Assembly: GCA_009773765.1 (NCBI GenBank)
Contig: WTWZ01000042.1
Location: 1-43,973 of the forward strand
Reading direction: 5' to 3'
Length of the DNA stretch: 43,973 nucleotides
DNA from: Prolixibacteraceae bacterium
GTDB taxonomy: Bacteria; Bacteroidota; Bacteroidia; Bacteroidales; Prolixibacteraceae
Position numbers and translations under genes: made by a program. This document shows, piece by piece, positions 31,219-38,248 of the stretch. Under the pieces are notes generated by a model that was not told where the DNA came from, ran no database searches, and saw only the letters and a program-made list of their open reading frames with translations. Numbering within the stretch: position 1 is the stretch's first letter; each line of letters begins with the position of its first letter.

Positions 31219-32262
31219 ATGCACAAAGCTGATTACATTCAAATTATAAAACACGCCTGGAAAGAATTCGACGACAGGCACGAAATCCGGGGGGTTTACG
31301 ATGTCAGCGCTTACGTTTCTACAAATCAGGTATATAAAATATCGTTTTTCAAACGTGAACCTGTTTTTGCCAAACTCTCAGATTACGGAAAGTACGACGA
31401 TTTCCGCGAAGATCACATCATTATTAATAACCTGGCGAACAATCTTGAAGCGCCTTACCAGAATTTCCTGGCCCAGTCGCTGGTCAAGAAAAACGAACTT
31501 TTCATTTACCGTTATCACCAGGAGGAAAGCAGCGCGTGGGTAGTTTTTTACAATCCCATTCAAACCAAATTGAAATTGCCCCGCCGGCCCGATGAAAAAC
31601 TAATCCGTAAACTGGGGCGAGAACTGGCCCGTTTTCACATTGCCTGCACCAACATTTGCACCCAGTTGCCCAATCCGTCGAAAACTGTGGTTACCGACAT
31701 TCATAAGTTGATTAAATCGGTTAACAATAACGAAATAAAAATGTGTGAAAACCATAAATCAATGGTACTCAAACATTGTGATATCTTTCTGAATAATGCC
31801 GACAAGGTGAACTACATGAGTGAGTTTGAAACCATCCCGGTTTTTATCGATTGGAACATCGGAAATTTTTCAATTACGGGTGAGGGAAAATTTTTTTCAC
31901 GCTGGGATTACGACTGGTTCAGAATGTCATCGAGGGTAATGGATTTTTATTTTTTCAGCCGGGTTGTTTCCAATACTGGCGACCGCACCGTTTTTAGTTA
32001 CCTGGTTGATCCGTTGATGGAAGACCGGTTTATGATGTTTCTGAAGGAATATCACCGTATATATCCGCTTACCGGACCCGAGGTGCACTTCATCATTGAG
32101 GCATATCGTTTTTTTATACTGAATTACGTTATCAAGGACGGGCCCTATTTTTTCAGGAAAACCTATTCGAACAAGCTGGTGAAAGAAGCATACGATACTT
32201 ATTTCCCGGCTATCGACGCCAATTACAATGTGGATAAAATTTTACGAACATTAAAAATTTAA
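31219..32262 (+). CDS. APH/choline-kinase-fold phosphotransferase
   Basis: A 347-aa kinase of the aminoglycoside phosphotransferase/choline kinase/homoserine kinase II fold. The N-lobe has VYKISFFKREPVFAKLSDYG, seen as YKISFFKREPVFAKL with a possible ATP lysine, then ELARFHIACT. The catalytic loop reads VFIDWNIGNFSI, a variant of the usual HxDxxxxN with W in place of the first conserved residues, and the metal-binding loop is SRWDYDWFRMSSRVMDFYFF, seen as WDYDWFRMSSRVMDFYF. The substrate is probably a small alcohol or amine. Resistance is unlikely given the setting. It starts 12 nt after the GS-like gene and ends 3 nt before the HAD gene. Confidence 0.75.
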   Translation: MHKADYIQIIKHAWKEFDDRHEIRGVYDVSAYVSTNQVYKISFFKREPVFAKLSDYGKYDDFREDHIIINNLANNLEAPYQNFLAQSLVKKNELFIYRYHQEESSAWVVFYNPIQTKLKLPRRPDEKLIRKLGRELARFHIACTNICTQLPNPSKTVVTDIHKLIKSVNNNEIKMCENHKSMVLKHCDIFLNNADKVNYMSEFETIPVFIDWNIGNFSITGEGKFFSRWDYDWFRMSSRVMDFYFFSRVVSNTGDRTVFSYLVDPLMEDRFMMFLKEYHRIYPLTGPEVHFIIEAYRFFILNYVIKDGPYFFRKTYSNKLVKEAYDTYFPAIDANYNVDKILRTLKI

Positions 32263-32265
32263 GGT

Positions 32266-33123
32266 ATGCACCGAAGGATAAAAACTTTTAAGAGTATTGT
32301 TACCAACTACAAAGCTGTGTTTTTTGATGCTTTTGGGGTGTTGAAAAATCACCAGGGATTAATACCAGGCATTGTAAAAACCTTCGAATTTCTCGATCGG
32401 AAAGGAATTAAATATTACATTTTAACCAATGATTCGTCGCGCAGCCCCGAAATGCTGGCCAAATGGTACCAGGACAGGGGAGTGTGGCAGGTAACCAGCG
32501 ATAAAATCCTTTCGTCGGGGATGCTGGCCATGGAGTATTTTAAAGTTAAAGTGGCCAACGGGAATGCAGTTGCATATCTCGGGACCGAAAATTCTGCACA
32601 CTACATCGAAACGGCTGGTTTAAAAACGGTTGCTGTAAAAGATATTGATTTAAACGACCTCGGCCATATCGAATCTTTTGCATTTCTCGATGACGAAGGA
32701 TTTAACTGGAACGAAGATATAAACAAAACCATCAACCTGCTGAGAAAGAAAAACATGACAGTGGTAGTTGCCAACACAGATATTAATTATCCGGTGAGTC
32801 AGAACGAAATTTCGGTGGCGGTGGGCAGTTTGGCTAATATGGTTGAAAAAATTATCGGAAAAATGTTTATCAGGTTCGGGAAACCCGATGCCCAGATGTT
32901 TTTACTGGCTTTCGAAAGGGCGTTGCTTGACATCAATGTAAAAAGAAATGAGATACTAATGGTGGGGGATACATTATATACAGATATTATTGGCGGCAAC
33001 AAATTTGGTTTGGACACGGTATTGGTTTTGTCGGGAAATACTTTGCCCGATATGGCATTAATCCGTATCAGCAGTTCAGGGATTATTCCAACATACATTT
33101 GCGAATCGGCGGTAATCGAATAA
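32266..33123 (+). CDS. HAD-superfamily class IIA hydrolase with atypical motif I
   Basis: A 285-aa NagD-like HAD protein. Motif I is AVFFDAFGVL (nucleophile D21), but the second catalytic aspartate (general acid) is replaced by phenylalanine, F23. A D-x-W-G-V variant at this point is typical of one HAD-IIA subgroup, so this is more likely a subfamily trait than decay. Motif II is YYILTNDSS (T54, N55); FGKPDAQMF carries the lysine; motif IV is EILMVGDTLYTDIIGGNKFG. The cap is of the C2 type. It is the last gene of the GS-like/kinase operon (3-nt gap). Its final 27 nt and stop are duplicated at 36721 across an inserted islet. Without the second aspartate, phosphatase activity is uncertain. Confidence 0.82.
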   Translation: MHRRIKTFKSIVTNYKAVFFDAFGVLKNHQGLIPGIVKTFEFLDRKGIKYYILTNDSSRSPEMLAKWYQDRGVWQVTSDKILSSGMLAMEYFKVKVANGNAVAYLGTENSAHYIETAGLKTVAVKDIDLNDLGHIESFAFLDDEGFNWNEDINKTINLLRKKNMTVVVANTDINYPVSQNEISVAVGSLANMVEKIIGKMFIRFGKPDAQMFLLAFERALLDINVKRNEILMVGDTLYTDIIGGNKFGLDTVLVLSGNTLPDMALIRISSSGIIPTYICESAVIE

Positions 33124-33141
33124 AAAAAGCTGTTCACCTGC
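33097..33141 (+). repeat. Left copy of a 45-bp direct repeat flanking the islet (3' end of the HAD gene)
   Basis: This stretch encodes the last residues of the HAD protein, its TAA and the beginning of the old terminator (AGCTGTTC). It recurs at 36721-36766 with one extra A in the A-run and one T/C change. Confidence 0.9.
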
Positions 33142-33214
33142 GCTGCCCCTCGTTTGCAACGAGGGGTGGGCTGTTCAGCATTTGCAATGCATAAATTCCG
33201 ACCAGTAATTGAAA

Positions 33215-33375
33215 TATTATAATTGAGTCCGCTCCGAAAAGTCCTTTGACCCCCTATCCCCCAAAGGGGGGACTTTTTAATTCAATGATTTTCAGATGTT
33301 CCCCTTTGGGGTTAGGGGTCAAACAGATGAAAATTATTGAATTTCATACTTTTTGGAGTAGGCTCATAATTGAAT
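33215..33375. repeat. Nested imperfect palindrome upstream of the RAYT gene
   Basis: The outer arms (about 33219-33243 and 33347-33371, sharing GAG.C...CTCC.AAAAGT in inverted form) enclose inner G/C-rich arms (33245-33270 and 33300-33323). The inner arms share TTTGACCCC and CCCCAAAGGGG-like sequence. It resembles the short CCCC/GGGG palindromes of Bacteroidetes genomes and may be a separate insertion in the element. Confidence 0.6.
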
Positions 33376-33395
33376 TACTATTTTTAAAACAAAAA

Positions 33396-33947
33396 ATGTC
33401 AGCCGACAACTATTTTATAACCGATCAGAATGCCGTTTATTTCCTGACTTTTACGGTTACCGACTGGATTGACGTATTCACCCGGAAAGAATATAAAATT
33501 GAAATTATTAATTCGCTGAATTACTGTATTGAGAAAAAAGGGCTTGTTGTTTTCGCGTGGTGCCTGATGTCTAATCATATACATCTGGTGTGCAAAGCAA
33601 ACGAAGGGTTCAGAATCAGCGATATTATCAGGGATTTTAAAAAGTTTACTGCCAAAGCGATTGTTAAATTAATTAGCGAAATTCCTGAAAGCAGAAAAGA
33701 GTGGTTGTTGTACCGTTTCGAGTTTGCCGGAAAATTCGATAGCCGAATTAAAAAGTACAAATTTTGGCAGGATACAAATCATGCTGTTTTACTTGACAAT
33801 AATGAAATGATAGACCAGCGGATTAATTACACTCATGAAAATCCGGTACGTGCATTAATTGTTGCAGAACCGAATGAATACCTTTTCAGTTCGGCACGTA
33901 ATTTTGCAGGTGAAAAAGGATATGTTAATGTACAAACTGAAGTTTAA
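33396..33947 (+). CDS. REP-associated tyrosine transposase (RAYT, Y1/HUH family)
   Basis: A 183-aa single-strand DNA nickase of the IS200-like RAYT family. The metal-binding HUH motif is at residues 61-63 in CLMSNHIHLV, and the catalytic tyrosine is Y145 in INYTHENPVRA; both are intact, so the enzyme could be active. A longer reading frame opens at 33246, but the family sequence starts at the ATG at 33396 (MSADNYFITDQNAVYFLTFT). RAYTs act on REP hairpins, and here the gene sits between inverted hairpin pairs. It carries no accessory TnpB. Confidence 0.9.
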   Translation: MSADNYFITDQNAVYFLTFTVTDWIDVFTRKEYKIEIINSLNYCIEKKGLVVFAWCLMSNHIHLVCKANEGFRISDIIRDFKKFTAKAIVKLISEIPESRKEWLLYRFEFAGKFDSRIKKYKFWQDTNHAVLLDNNEMIDQRINYTHENPVRALIVAEPNEYLFSSARNFAGEKGYVNVQTEV

Positions 33948-34027
33948 CATGCTATAAATGAAAAATTGTGAGTTGCAAACTCAAAGACAGCTTACCCCTC
34001 GTTGCAAACGAGGGGCAGGGGGGGTAA

Positions 34028-35864
34028 ATGAAAACCCGTTTCAGCATAAACGGCACCGGAGAGATATTAATGTCGGGGAATAATTACAACGAGGCAGAAA
34101 ACCTGGCCACACAATACCTGCACTCGGTAAGTGGAGGTACTTTTCTTCAGAAGAATGATTATCTGTACAATATCAGGGGGTGGATGACACAGTTAAATAA
34201 TCCTTCATCATTTACCGAAAACGATGTGTTCGGGATGAAACTCGAATACAACCTGGCAAGTACTCCGTTGTACAATGGTAATATCTCAAAATTTACCTGG
34301 GCGTATTCGGCCGCTGCAATCAGGACATACACATTTACTTATGACGGGAATAACAGAGTTACGGCTGCCAACTTTAATGCAACCGGCAAAACCGGAAATG
34401 AACTGGATGAAGTTTTTGCTTATGATTTTAACGGAAATATCACGAAAACATCGAGGTACGATTACAACGGCGTTTTAACCGACAGTATGAAATTTACCTA
34501 CGCGGGAAACCGCATTACCGGCTTTTACGACAAACAGGGAGACATAGCTTCTGTCGTTGACTATCCGGGAAGTGCCACCTCAAAATATCCAATTTACGAT
34601 TATAACGGTAACGAAACCACCGAACCCCACAAACTACTGGGCATTGGGTATAACATGATTAACCTGCCCTATGTAATAAACTGGAACGGGCTGAACCGCA
34701 AAGTCAGTTATTTTTATACTTTTGATGGCATTAAAAGGCGCAAAACAGTTGAGGACAACGGGACCATTACCAAGCTTGATTACTGCGGCCCGTTTGTTTA
34801 CGAAACAGTAAGCGGAACACGTTCTTTAAAATACATTTTAACACCACATGGCAGGGCGGTTAAAAGCGGAAGCTCGTGGGTTTACAATTAACATTACCGA
34901 CCATTTAGGCAATGTAAGGGCTGAGATTACACCTTATATCGGGGGGGCGCCATTGGTAACCCAAGCCAGGAATTATTATACTTTTGGTATGTTGAAGCGA
35001 AGCGGAAATCCCGATGAAATCGGGAGTGATGAGCCAGTTGAACAGTGGCTCCACCACCAATAAATACCAATACAACGGCAAGGAGTTACAGGATGATTTT
35101 GGTTTGTACTGGTACGATTACGGGGCTCGGTACTATGACCCGATGATTGGGAGGTGGCATACGGTGGACCCAAAGGCGGAATCATATTATTCTTTTTCTC
35201 CTTTCCATTTTTCAGGAAACAACCCAATGAAATTTCTTGACCTGAATGGAATGAATTATGATTGGGTAGAAAAAGCACTGGTGGAGGGGAGTTGGTATGG
35301 GATGATAAAGTTACAAGTGCAAATGATGAGGATCTTCAAAAAGGAGATAAATATTTGGGGAAAAATGTTCTTGTTGGCACTCATAACAGAGATGCAAATT
35401 TGAATGAACCAATTAACAGTGCAAAGTTTGAGTTATATCTTGAAAGTAATAAAGAAGGACCTTCAGCAACTATTATGGGGAATACGGTGCCTGCTGATGT
35501 AACTAAGCAAGGAACTCTTGCCGAAGGATTATATTCTGCAAGGTCTCAAGGTAGAGCAGGTATTTTAGCAGAGGGTAAGCAAGATTTGGCTTTAATTATA
35601 AACGAAGGTAAATCAGTGCCAACAGCCCCGGGAAGTCCTAAGTCTTCGATGAGTGAGATATTTTTTCATTCAGGAAATTATAATAGGTTAAGTTTAAGCA
35701 CTAATACCCCTGGGCAATATATATCTAAGGGTTGCCAAACAAGTGGTTGTGGCCCTGGTTCTCGCCCTTTGCATAATCAATTTATGAAAGCGGTAGGCAC
35801 AGACTTTAAAGGCTCTTACTATTTACGCTCACAACCAAAATTAGAAGTTCCAAAATCTCAATAG
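34028..35864 (+). pseudogene. RHS/YD-repeat gene remnant with intact toxin-like C-terminal tail
   Basis: The 5' part is missing: the sequence begins inside the repeat region directly after the RAYT right end. Clear RHS parts are YNIRGWMTQLNN, FGMKLEYN, the repeats YDFNGNI and YDYNG, ITDHLGNVRAEITP, NKYQYNGKELQDDFGL, YDYGARYYDPMIGRWHTVDP and NGMNYDWVEK. Three frame breaks interrupt it: about 4 extra bases at 34888-34891 (TTAA), a 34-nt palindromic insertion at 34995-35028, and loss of one A in the A-run at 35270-35274. After the last break the tail runs open to 35864. The tail holds IFFHSGN (His at 35667) and ISKGCQTSGCG (Cys at 35733 and 35748), a spacing that recalls the His/SxGC pattern of L,D-transpeptidase-like folds. 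That resemblance is tentative. A lipoprotein gene follows 2 nt later. Confidence 0.85.
34995..35028 (+). repeat. Short palindromic insertion inside the RHS gene
   Basis: About 34 nt with the hairpin TCCCGAT-GAA-ATCGGGA (35009-35025) sit between the codons for YTFGML and MSQLNSGS of the RHS core. Removing them restores the frame, so the insertion itself causes one of the three frame breaks. Confidence 0.65.
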
Positions 35865-35866
35865 TT

Positions 35867-36271
35867 ATGAATTATATACTTTTATTCTTCCTGCTATTGT
35901 CCTGTAATGTACAGGAACAACAAGGGCTTCCATCATTGGTAAATACTAAATGGGAATATAAAGTTGCCGAAGACTGTGTAAGTTATATTGCTTTTAAAGC
36001 AGATAGTACTTATGAGGACTATAATTGCGAATTAGATTTTCCTTTTAGTGGAAATTACAAAGTAAAAAAAGATACTTTATATTTAACAGAAATAGGTTTA
36101 GCTTCTGAATTGCCAGGAACAACTCAAAAAATTGTTAAACGTAAAAGCAAAGGGATATTGACAAATGGTCAATTAAAATTTATAGATGGAGAAGAGCTTG
36201 ATGATGGGAAATGGATAAAGTCTGATTATAAGCCAACACAAGAAGTACTTTATAAGAAAGTAGTAAAATGA
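35867..36271 (+). CDS. Small lipoprotein, candidate immunity protein for the RHS tail
   Basis: Family not recognised. The 134-aa product starts MNYILLFFLLLSCNVQEQQG: a type II signal peptide with lipobox LLSC, so it should be lipid-anchored in the periplasm or outer membrane. The rest looks like a small beta-rich domain (TKWEYKVAEDCVSYIAFKAD, seen as TKWEYKVAEDC; FPFSGNYKVKKDTLYLTEIG), similar to lipocalin-like or META-like folds by general pattern only. The ATG is 2 nt after the end of the RHS tail, the position usual for immunity genes of RHS toxins. An envelope location would suit protection against a wall-targeting toxin. By eye the region is more AT-rich than its neighbours, which hints at transfer. 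Confidence 0.65.
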   Translation: MNYILLFFLLLSCNVQEQQGLPSLVNTKWEYKVAEDCVSYIAFKADSTYEDYNCELDFPFSGNYKVKKDTLYLTEIGLASELPGTTQKIVKRKSKGILTNGQLKFIDGEELDDGKWIKSDYKPTQEVLYKKVVK

Positions 36272-36272
36272 C

Positions 36273-36305
36273 AAACGCCCGGGAAGACCGGGCGTTTTGC
36301 TTTTT
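36273..36305 (+). terminator. Terminator after the lipoprotein gene
   Basis: The arms AAACGCCCGG (36273-36282) and CCGGGCGTTT (36288-36297) enclose GAAGA, and a T-rich run follows to 36305. It begins 2 nt after the stop codon. Confidence 0.9.
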
Positions 36306-36350
36306 ACATCAGGCTAATTTTAGCAGCTTTAATAAAATGGTCAACAGTAA

Positions 36351-36502
36351 TTAAAAGACATTCTTTTTCTTTTCGGGCAGTACCTGAATATCCTGAAAGC
36401 GTTGTAGCATTTTAGGGTCTTTAAAAAGGTCGGCTTCGTCATTCTCTCCTAATAGATAACCAACGGTAGTACCTAAAATCTTAGCCAGTTTTTTAGCGGC
36501 CA
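36351..36502 (-). pseudogene. Remnant of an XRE-family HTH regulator
   Basis: Reading on the minus strand gives AVAAKKLAKILGTTVGYLLG, ENDEADLFKDPKMLQRFQDI and LPEKKKNVF: the end of a Cro/C1-type helix-turn-helix domain and the linker typical of small Bacteroidetes XRE regulators. The N-terminal helices are missing, replaced by the terminal repeat of the small element at 36503-36715, and the frame stops early at 36351. No function is expected. Confidence 0.75.
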
Positions 36503-36715
36503 CCGCTCCTGCGCGATTGCATCGCGTGGTTAAGAAGCAGGTCATAAAAATTTCTTAATTTTATCCATTCCTGAAAATAAACTGTTTCATGAGCCGGAAT
36601 TACAAATTTTTTAATACTGATGGTGTATATTTATAAGTTTTGCTGGTGAAAAAAGAATTCTGGGAGATGTTATTGTTGTTAAGTATTGCCACGTGATGCA
36701 ATCGCGCGGGAGCGG
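36503..36715. mobile_element. Small MITE-like element with hairpin-bearing terminal inverted repeats
   Basis: The 27-nt ends at 36503-36529 and 36689-36715 are reverse complements with two mismatches. Each holds a hairpin with a TGC or GCA loop: left CGCGAT-TGC-ATCGCG, right CGTGAT-GCA-ATCGCG. The interior of about 160 nt is AT-rich and codes for nothing. It has cut the XRE regulator gene. The CTG-hairpin-TGG setting of the left end matches the left end of the RAYT element. Confidence 0.65.
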
Positions 36716-36720
36716 AGTTT

Positions 36721-36766
36721 ATTTGCGAATCGGCGGTAATCGAATAAAAAAAAGCTGCTCACCTGC
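36721..36766 (+). repeat. Right copy of the 45-bp direct repeat
   Basis: It repeats the last codons of the HAD gene, its stop and the start of the terminator (see 33097-33141), with 8 instead of 7 A and one C for T. It contains no gene of its own. Confidence 0.9.
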
Positions 36767-36782
36767 CAGCGAACAGCTCTTA
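36746..36782 (-). terminator. Terminator of the GSII gene, formerly shared with the HAD operon
   Basis: The arms AGCTGCTC (36753-36760) and GAACAGCT (36771-36778) pair with one mismatch. On the minus strand the stem is followed by eight T. The left direct-repeat copy at 33130-33137 has AGCTGTTC, which would pair perfectly with GAACAGCT; this suggests the islet was inserted next to this hairpin. Confidence 0.75.
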
Positions 36783-36803
36783 AGTATTGTGTATTTGAAA
36801 CTT

Positions 36804-37823
36804 TTACAGTTTCAATTTGGCATGGTGTACAGTTTTAATAATACGTGCCCCAACTTTATATGGGTCTGCGTTTGAAGCCGGACGACGATCTTCCAGACGA
36901 CCTTTCCATCCGTTTTCAACAGTTCCAATCGGGATACGGATAGACGAACCACGGTCGGAAACCCCGTAACTGAAATCGTTAATTGATGCAGTTTCGTGTT
37001 TTCCTGTTAAGCGCTGGTCATTATATGCTCCGTAAACAGCAATGTGTTCCTTAATATTTTTTCCGAATTCTTCGCATATAGCGTTAAATACTTTTTCATC
37101 GCCGCAGGTTCTCATTAAACCATTCGAGAAGTTGGCATGCATACCAGAGCCGTTCCAGTCGAGGTCTTTGCCCAGTGGTTTCGGGTGCCATTCAACATCA
37201 ACGCCGTATTTTTCGGCAGCTCTTTCCATTAAAAAGCGTGCTACCCAAATCTGGTCGCCTGCATTTCCGGCGCCTTTGGCAAAAATCTGGAATTCCCACT
37301 GGCCTGCGGCAACCTCAGCGTTTATGCCTTCAATGTTTAATCCTGCTTCGAGGCACATGTCGAAATGTTCCTCAACAATATTACGTCCAAATACTTTCGA
37401 ACCGCCAACACCGCAGTAATACGGGCCTTGCGGAAGTGGAAAACCGCCTGCAGGGAAACCCAGCGGAAGCCTGGTTTGCGGATCGTACAGAAAATATTCC
37501 TGTTCATATCCAAACCAGAAATCATCGTCATCTTCTTCAATTTGTGAACGGCCATTGGTGGAGTGCGGGGTTCCGTCGGAGTACAAAACCTCGGTCATCA
37601 CCAAATATGCACTTTTGCGGTCAGGGTCAGGACAAATAAAAACCGGTTTTAGCAAAAGGTCCGATTTTCCACCTTCGGCCTGGTTTGTTGAAGAACCGTC
37701 AAACGACCAAATCGGACAATCTTCCAGCTTACCGCTGAAGTTGGCCTCAACACGGGTTTTTGCCCTTAATTGCTGGGTTGGAACCGAACCATCCAGCCAA
37801 ATGTATTCCAATTTTGATTTCAT
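36804..37823 (-). CDS. glnII: Glutamine synthetase type II (eukaryote-like)
   Basis: A 339-aa GSII enzyme, much shorter than GSI and GSIII. Landmarks are LEYIWLDGS at the N terminus, IWSFDGSSTNQAEG, SDLLLKPV, FGYEQEYFLYD (metal-binding glutamates), GPYYCGVGG, AEVAAGQWEFQIF, LDWNGSGMHANFSN and DRGSSIRIP near the C terminus. An in-frame ATG at 37874 adds 17 residues, but the family starts at the ATG at 37823 (MKSKLEYIW). A TATTTTTG box lies about 50 nt upstream. It is the third glutamine synthetase-type gene within 10.5 kb and is convergent with the GS-like operon. Confidence 0.95.
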   Translation of the reverse strand: MKSKLEYIWLDGSVPTQQLRAKTRVEANFSGKLEDCPIWSFDGSSTNQAEGGKSDLLLKPVFICPDPDRKSAYLVMTEVLYSDGTPHSTNGRSQIEEDDDDFWFGYEQEYFLYDPQTRLPLGFPAGGFPLPQGPYYCGVGGSKVFGRNIVEEHFDMCLEAGLNIEGINAEVAAGQWEFQIFAKGAGNAGDQIWVARFLMERAAEKYGVDVEWHPKPLGKDLDWNGSGMHANFSNGLMRTCGDEKVFNAICEEFGKNIKEHIAVYGAYNDQRLTGKHETASINDFSYGVSDRGSSIRIPIGTVENGWKGRLEDRRPASNADPYKVGARIIKTVHHAKLKL

Positions 37824-38248
37824 GTTGTAATAATTTATGATTAAAAATAGATATTTTCTTTTATTGTGACACAAAAATAGGGTTAAATGAAATTTATGAA
37901 ACTGAAATTATGACAATTTGTAAAAATTTAATACAAATTTTACATTAAAATCAAAAATTTAGCGATACCCCTATTAAAAAACTACCCTTTTTCAATAAAA
38001 TAGTATGTTTATTTGATAATGTGCATTTTATTAACAGGTGTTTATTTAAATTAGTTCATTAAATTATTTTTTAACCCCAAAAATTGACGCCCTTTGTAAT
38101 TTAAACCGGAACATGATTTTAAATGGTATAATTTTTTAAAAAACATCAGTAACAAATCATGGTATCCGGAGTCATATTAGTAAACATTTTATTTTTTAAA
38201 AACTTAAGTTGTATAATTGTGTTATTTTGAATATTTAATTCGAACAAA
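37824..38248. other. AT-rich intergenic region between divergent GSII and tldD
   Basis: These 425 nt hold no credible gene. They are strongly AT-rich, carry the GSII -7 box at 37872-37879 and presumably the tldD promoter near the right end; a TTATTTTG there (38221-38228 region) is only a partial match to TAnnTTTG. No hairpin, riboswitch or repeat was recognised. Confidence 0.6.
37872..37879 (-). promoter_or_regulatory. -7 box TATTTTTG for GSII
   Basis: The minus strand reads TATTTTTG, 49 nt upstream of the ATG at 37823. A TTTC 18 nt further upstream may be a weak -33 element. The octamer is identical to that of the GSIII gene. Confidence 0.45.

Follow-up and report, generated by a model that had tools for sequence, protein, structure and literature searches.

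Structure of the HAD-GSII locus

The window, that is, the whole stretch of DNA analysed here, is a complete contig of 43,973 bp from a draft genome assembly of 118 contigs. A HAD-like hydrolase gene and a convergent glutamine synthetase (GSII) gene are separated in it by an islet of accessory DNA with a REP-associated tyrosine transposase (RAYT) element at its left edge. The locus comprises the following features.

32266-33123, + strand: HAD-like hydrolase gene, the insertion target (Pfam Hydrolase_6, Hydrolase, and Hydrolase_like above cut-off)
33097-33141, + strand: direct repeat, left copy, with the last HAD codons, the stop, an A-tract, and the first terminator arm and loop
33142-34027, + strand: RAYT A element, bounded by inverted REP palindromes (33146-33166 and 33995-34015); position of the edges uncertain by a few nt
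33224-33366, no strand assigned: MITE-like repeat nested in RAYT A, with terminal inverted repeats (TIRs) and flanking 4-bp TAAT
33396-33947, + strand: RAYT A gene, 183 aa, open (NCBIfam NF047646, 88.9 bits; cut-off, 80)
34028-35403, + strand: RHS remnant in three frames (34028-34891, 34848-35063, and 35014-35403), 5' part missing
35262-35864, + strand: RHS tip piece, with a similar piece in genome G303
35867-36271, + strand: lipoprotein gene, product a probable (immunity-like) partner of the tip, which it adjoins in G303
36351-36502, - strand: C-terminal fragment of an XRE/RstR-like repressor gene (weak NF041951 match)
36503-36715, + strand: RAYT B, deletion remnant of a second REP-RAYT element, by comparison with contig C56
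36721-36766, + strand: direct repeat, right copy, the native junction, running into the rest of the terminator
36752-36779, no strand assigned: terminator hairpin common to HAD and GSII (fold, -7.1 kcal/mol)
36804-37823, - strand: GSII gene, convergent neighbour (Pfam Gln-synt_C and Gln-synt_N)

Comparison of the two repeat copies demonstrated that 33097-33128 and 36721-36752 match exactly over 32 nt, and that the register carries on to 33141 and 36766 apart from an additional A and a T/C substitution, giving two differences overall. Because only about 5e-11 exact 32-mer pairs are expected in random sequence of the same length, the repeat is not a chance match. The left-copy AGCTGTTC pairs with GAACAGCT adjoining the right copy, whose coding part ends 59 bp ahead of the GSII stop codon and is followed by the second terminator arm. 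In four relatives, HAD, a single hairpin, and GSII are arranged with spacings of 54 bp (locus L021), 56 bp (L081), 69 bp (L104), and 74 bp (L103), and the agreement of the 59-bp distance with these values identified the right copy as the native junction. These empty sites, together with the pairing between the flanks, bear out what the original prediction had claimed, namely a direct repeat at the HAD 3' end with one indel and one substitution, flanks that were once contiguous, and an insertion that duplicated the end of the gene. Insertion with duplication of the HAD end is the simplest reading of the locus.

The right-copy hairpin folded no better than shuffled sequences (-7.1 kcal/mol; z, -0.86), and its counterpart in L081 reached -9.3 kcal/mol with a z of -4.2. 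Rfam gave no matches at gathering score across 32200-37900.

Our survey of HAD covered 29 loci of named genomes, 27 of which contained at least 825 bp downstream. GSII was convergent behind HAD in 20 of the 29, at distances from 56 to 2344 bp. No HAD-end repeat beyond weak 18-22-bp matches (L081, L088, and L099) was present in the 27 loci with sufficient downstream sequence, and a downstream match at the HAD locus L092 was a simple repeat. Neither a further carrier of the repeat nor two repeat copies without the islet, an arrangement that would speak against an insertion, was seen in these 27 loci. The GSII next to HAD in G022 (L002:1932-2945) was 69% identical to that of the window, as compared with 78-90% in the other 19 loci, and is possibly a replaced gene. 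The HAD-GSII gap is about 1.2 kb in many relatives (e.g., L080:6847-8064) and probably contains an extra gene.

RAYT A and the cargo of the islet

By its NF047646 score, the RAYT A gene belongs to the REP-associated tyrosine transposase family, and its score with the IS200-type transposase model was 24.2 bits, below the cut-off of 55. The HUH histidines H61 and H63 and the tyrosine Y145 were invariant across six aligned RAYT A members, and we take these to be the catalytic residues. They agree with the motifs of PMC6006769. With respect to the motif set of subclass 2.6 (NH[LIV]H, WQ, and YIH[QN]NP), NHIH and WQ are present and YTHENP deviates. The gene is an ordinary RAYT whose motifs lie near those of the Bacteroidetes subclass 2.6 as defined in the available part of PMC6006769.

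The edges of the element were set by the REP copies in contigs C89, C5, and C100 of the same genome and by comparison with G035, whose RAYT A element is identical to that of the window at 83% (DNA) and 90% (protein). The REP_A palindrome occurs at nine places in the genome, two in the islet, five in C89, and one each in C5 and C100. The five-palindrome array (L074:1139-1688; C89:28638-29187) contains no RAYT gene of that family. The nested 143-bp MITE-like repeat, which has TGAGTCCGCTCCGAAAAG as its TIR and TAAT (4 bp) at either side, is absent from the RAYT A element of G035; copies of it (90-95%) were found in C23 and C12 of the same genome, and several more in G022. The RAYT of the original prediction was thus present, but as a full element with inverted REPs and a nested MITE.

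The RHS stretch starts at the right end of RAYT A, where homology to a 1093-aa RHS ORF of G034 begins at residue 1 of the 34028 ORF; the G034 ORF has about 480 residues upstream of this point. The RHS core was recognised (TIGR03696 Rhs_assc_core, 58.4 bits; cut-off, 32.5), and the predicted RHS remnant, left over from a polymorphic toxin, is real, with the addition that it is broken into several frames and lacks these roughly 480 upstream residues and is not a complete open gene. Copying of the remnant from elsewhere in the same genome was rejected, since only 32-35% matches exist there.

The RHS tip piece was 71-72% identical to that of G303; it had no match in Pfam or NCBIfam, and its sole match in the PDB was at chance level (E, 0.21). 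The lipoprotein, 47-50% identical to its G303 counterpart, had been described as an orphan, but it adjoins the RHS tip in G303 as well, so that, judged from sequence and gene order, it is probably the immunity-like partner of the tip. G303 carries two tandem RHS tip cassettes (L209:135-3929), the first of which shares its tip and lipoprotein with the islet.

The XRE fragment (NF041951, 20.6 bits; cut-off, 80) exists as predicted, but it ends at RAYT B, the deletion remnant that cuts it at 36503-36715. RAYT B matched C56 of the same genome at 88% over 165 nt and 91% over 78 nt; C56 has 451 nt more between these segments, and this longer version is itself split over two frames. With RAYT A at the left edge and the RAYT B remnant at the right, both outer edges of the islet are REP hairpins. 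No integrase family in Pfam or NCBIfam matched the islet ORFs scanned, in line with the original description of an islet devoid of integrase.

Similar arrangements at two other genes

Arrangements similar to the islet occur at two other genes of the genus. In G035, ppdK is followed by RAYT A, a small ORF, and the remnant of an RHS core. The duplicated segment extends from 6 to 183 nt past the ppdK stop (about 180 bp) and consists of the non-coding terminator region. Past the right copy, the sequence runs on like that of the RAYT-free G022 site, and the terminator type of the left copy resembles that of G000, that of the right copy G022. A search of 20 RAYT loci (up to 18 kb) found an RHS core in G035 alone, and in none of the 29 HAD loci. 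The ppdK loci of 20 relatives, drawn from 29 RAYT-free ones, showed neither the repeat nor a RAYT; 19 of these included 5.5 kb downstream and one 1.5 kb, and a downstream stretch of 1.5 kb or less would miss the G035 repeat. As a positive control, the same test detected both repeat and RAYT in G035.

In G008, a one-contig genome, RAYT A lies behind an arsM-like gene, the last 165 bp of which occur three times. The region (L247:1249-2998) comprises two tandem units of gene end, REP, RAYT, REP, and spacer, the second without the RAYT gene, and the arsM-like gene stands on the opposite side of the RAYT element. Within the arsM-like family, 20 of the 21 other loci (1.2-1.5 kb downstream, many of them distant paralogues) had neither a RAYT nor a gene-end repeat. 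In G002, RAYT A lies behind an arsM-like gene and the gene-end repeat is absent, which weakens a strict duplication rule.

Survey of direct repeats at RAYT elements

A search with the RAYT A protein yielded 43 matches in 27 of the 37 genomes of the genus group. Some matches were pieces of one element, and 29 distinct elements were tested; those omitted were L251, L265, L266, and L268, the fragmentary L219 and L220, and smaller fragments of G029, G010, G002, and G009. We scored a direct repeat as left-flush when it lay no more than 22 bp from the left REP's outer foot, with an identity of at least 85% and a score of at least 60 bits. Such repeats were found at five of the 29 elements (the window, G035, G008, G003, and G014) and not at the remaining 24; since eight of the 29 were covered by only 0.7-1.5 kb on the right, the misses are upper bounds. 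G029 has an exact 26-mer that stays under the threshold and occurs twice on the right-hand side. In G003, G014, and G029, the repeats either do not code or contain sequence that is itself repeated, and we placed weight on the window, G035, and G008 rather than on G003 and G014. Behind RAYT A in G029 stands a tandem series of partial RAYT 3' ends, every one accompanied by its REP (L196:1605-2250).

Controls gave no left-flush repeat at 420 random points in the same loci (with 16 weaker matches) or at 520 random points in the HAD loci. Gene ends gave two at 369 points, both RAYT-associated (the G008 arsM-like locus itself and the tandem RAYT fragments of G029). The excess at RAYT elements over the controls was significant (Fisher p = 1.7e-8), also when the window and G014, which had suggested the idea, were removed (p = 1.9e-5) and when G003 was removed in addition (p = 7e-4). 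Under the same threshold, repeats flush to the right REP were found in G010 and in G014, the latter having flush repeats at either side, with a control frequency of one in 828 points; the left-side polarity is thus not strict and amounts to a tendency.

The class-level set comprised 30 loci, one of them without a recognisable RAYT ORF; among the 29 tested, two of which lack an inverted pair and have estimated ends, none reached the left-flush threshold. L309 (84.7%, 198 bits) and L312 (82.7%, 25 bp off) came close, and L317 had a strong right-flush repeat, but a tandem pair of RAYT genes is located there. The effect may be limited to the genus group or hidden elsewhere by decay.

Origin of the islet

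The locus displays an inserted islet, a duplication, a native junction on the right, and a RAYT element at the left edge. We tentatively explain these by one RAYT-led, cargo-carrying insertion with a long, variable target duplication, to which we assign a probability of roughly 0.48. RAYT A and neighbouring RHS-locus DNA would have entered the terminator hairpin just 3' of HAD, with the left REP hairpin as the sharp joint. The right joint would lie beyond RAYT A, at the outer hairpin of the decayed RAYT B, and would have joined the target at a point 45 bp upstream of the left one, which accounts for the two copies of these 45 bp and for the native HAD-terminator-GSII junction on the right. The flush left joints suggest that the RAYT nuclease may act at its own left hairpin; the neighbouring DNA may have been carried along in a one-ended insertion, and host repair or template switching may account for the offset of the right joint. 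The RHS tip and lipoprotein would be decayed passengers. Judged from the sequences compared, a one-ended insertion would fit the sharp single hairpin joint, the cargo past the other REP, and the unequal duplications.

This RAYT-led reading is supported by the intact RAYT A at the left edge, the RHS stretch starting at its right end, the XRE fragment ending at RAYT B, the empty sites, the parallel loci of G035 and G008, the absence of the repeat from the RAYT-free ppdK loci, and the flush repeats at 5 of 29 elements versus none of 420 and none of 520 control points. Counting against it are the 24 elements without a repeat, G002, the class-level result, the right-flush repeats of G014 and G010, and the non-coding or repeat-containing nature of the duplications in G003, G014, and G029. 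The existence of right-flush repeats and the non-coding duplication of G035 lowered our odds slightly. A sequence of RAYT insertion, tandem duplication, and loss of one RAYT was rejected: it leads one to expect a continuation of the target behind the right REP, and inspection of the window, G035, and G008 revealed none.

The serious rival, and the main one although we rate it below the RAYT-led reading, is import by one-sided homologous recombination (homology-facilitated illegitimate recombination). A donor HAD 3' end with RAYT A and the RHS remnant would have recombined within HAD, and the two copies of the HAD end would be the outcome of the donor's other end joining the recipient's own HAD end illegitimately. 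The lack of a close copy of the RHS remnant in the genome agrees with import, as do the differing terminator types of the G035 copies, and the mechanism has been put forward to explain effector/immunity arrays and is also cited for Rhs loci in the available part of PMC5361080. However, no clear ancestry break was seen in HAD or ppdK, a comparison of low power, and import by itself does not predict the flush left-hairpin joints, above all in G008, where the gene stands on the other side. The three G008 copies also differ from each other at fewer of 168 positions (9-13) than from G010 and G002 (13-18), with one tie at 13, although these sequence distances are not decisive.

Template switching or another hairpin repair process independent of the RAYT protein, in which replication stalled at the terminator, copied a stretch rich in REPs, and restarted 45 bp further upstream, appears considerably less probable. 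Such a process would agree with the palindromes at the two outer edges of the islet and with the hairpin at the target, but it predicts the same joints at REP hairpins without RAYT genes.

The original prediction had likened the islet to site-specific integration, and an integrative island with its attachment site at the HAD 3' end, since decayed and deprived of its integrase, would account for a repeat that restores the gene end. We regard this as very unlikely: no integrase family was matched, the HAD-end repeat is missing from all 27 other HAD loci, and the repeat differs between loci, since related RAYT islets duplicate other sequences (the ppdK terminator region in G035 and the arsM-like end in G008) and the repeat is thus not a fixed attachment site. 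An assembly artefact fusing two loci, conceivable in a draft of 118 contigs, is still less probable, given that the two copies differ at two positions, that both joints are internal to a 44-kb contig, and that the G008 analogue belongs to a one-contig genome.

Implications and comparison with known systems

The mobility of RAYTs is described as unproven and the manner of REP spread as unclear in the available parts of PMC2817692, PMC6006769, and PMC8266576, and REPIN excision reads are reported in that of PMC3116915. The titles and abstract beginnings returned by an open literature search described no long target duplications at RAYT insertions. The parallel patterns in two relatives matter because they concern a transposase family without proven mobility. 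A broader proposal, which we rate as doubtful, is that Bacteroidota RAYTs are not merely domesticated and drive insertions with one hairpin as the precise end and the other end running into neighbouring DNA. RHS tip-partner remnants and other cargo would thereby be delivered to the 3' ends of genes, and the target duplications left there would be long and of variable length. If true, this manner of insertion would have no described counterpart among Y1 HUH enzymes in the available parts of the literature cited here, and RAYTs would provide a route for accessory DNA to gene ends without an integrase. Insertions in which the empty site can be read, one hairpin joint is sharp, and the target duplication is long leave a footprint that lends itself to sequence searches and in vitro tests.

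The element resembles known RAYT/TnpA_REP systems in its score for the REP_Tyr_transpos family (above cut-off), its HUH and tyrosine motifs, the inverted palindromes around the gene, and the palindrome copies elsewhere in the genome, but differs in that it borders a cargo-bearing insertion of 3.6 kb with 45 bp of the target duplicated. Integrative islands that occupy the 3' ends of genes restore the gene end and are flanked by direct repeats on both sides. The islet shares both properties, whereas no integrase was found in it and the repeat varies by locus. With IS200/IS605 elements it shares the Y1 HUH superfamily and hairpin ends, but its 45-bp duplication contrasts with the absence of larger target duplications for IS200/IS605 in the available part of PMC2817692. 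Finally, an RHS tip with a partner remnant as foreign DNA recalls Rhs effector/immunity displacement, as set out in the available part of PMC5361080, although the islet is located outside any RHS locus, behind HAD and beside a RAYT.
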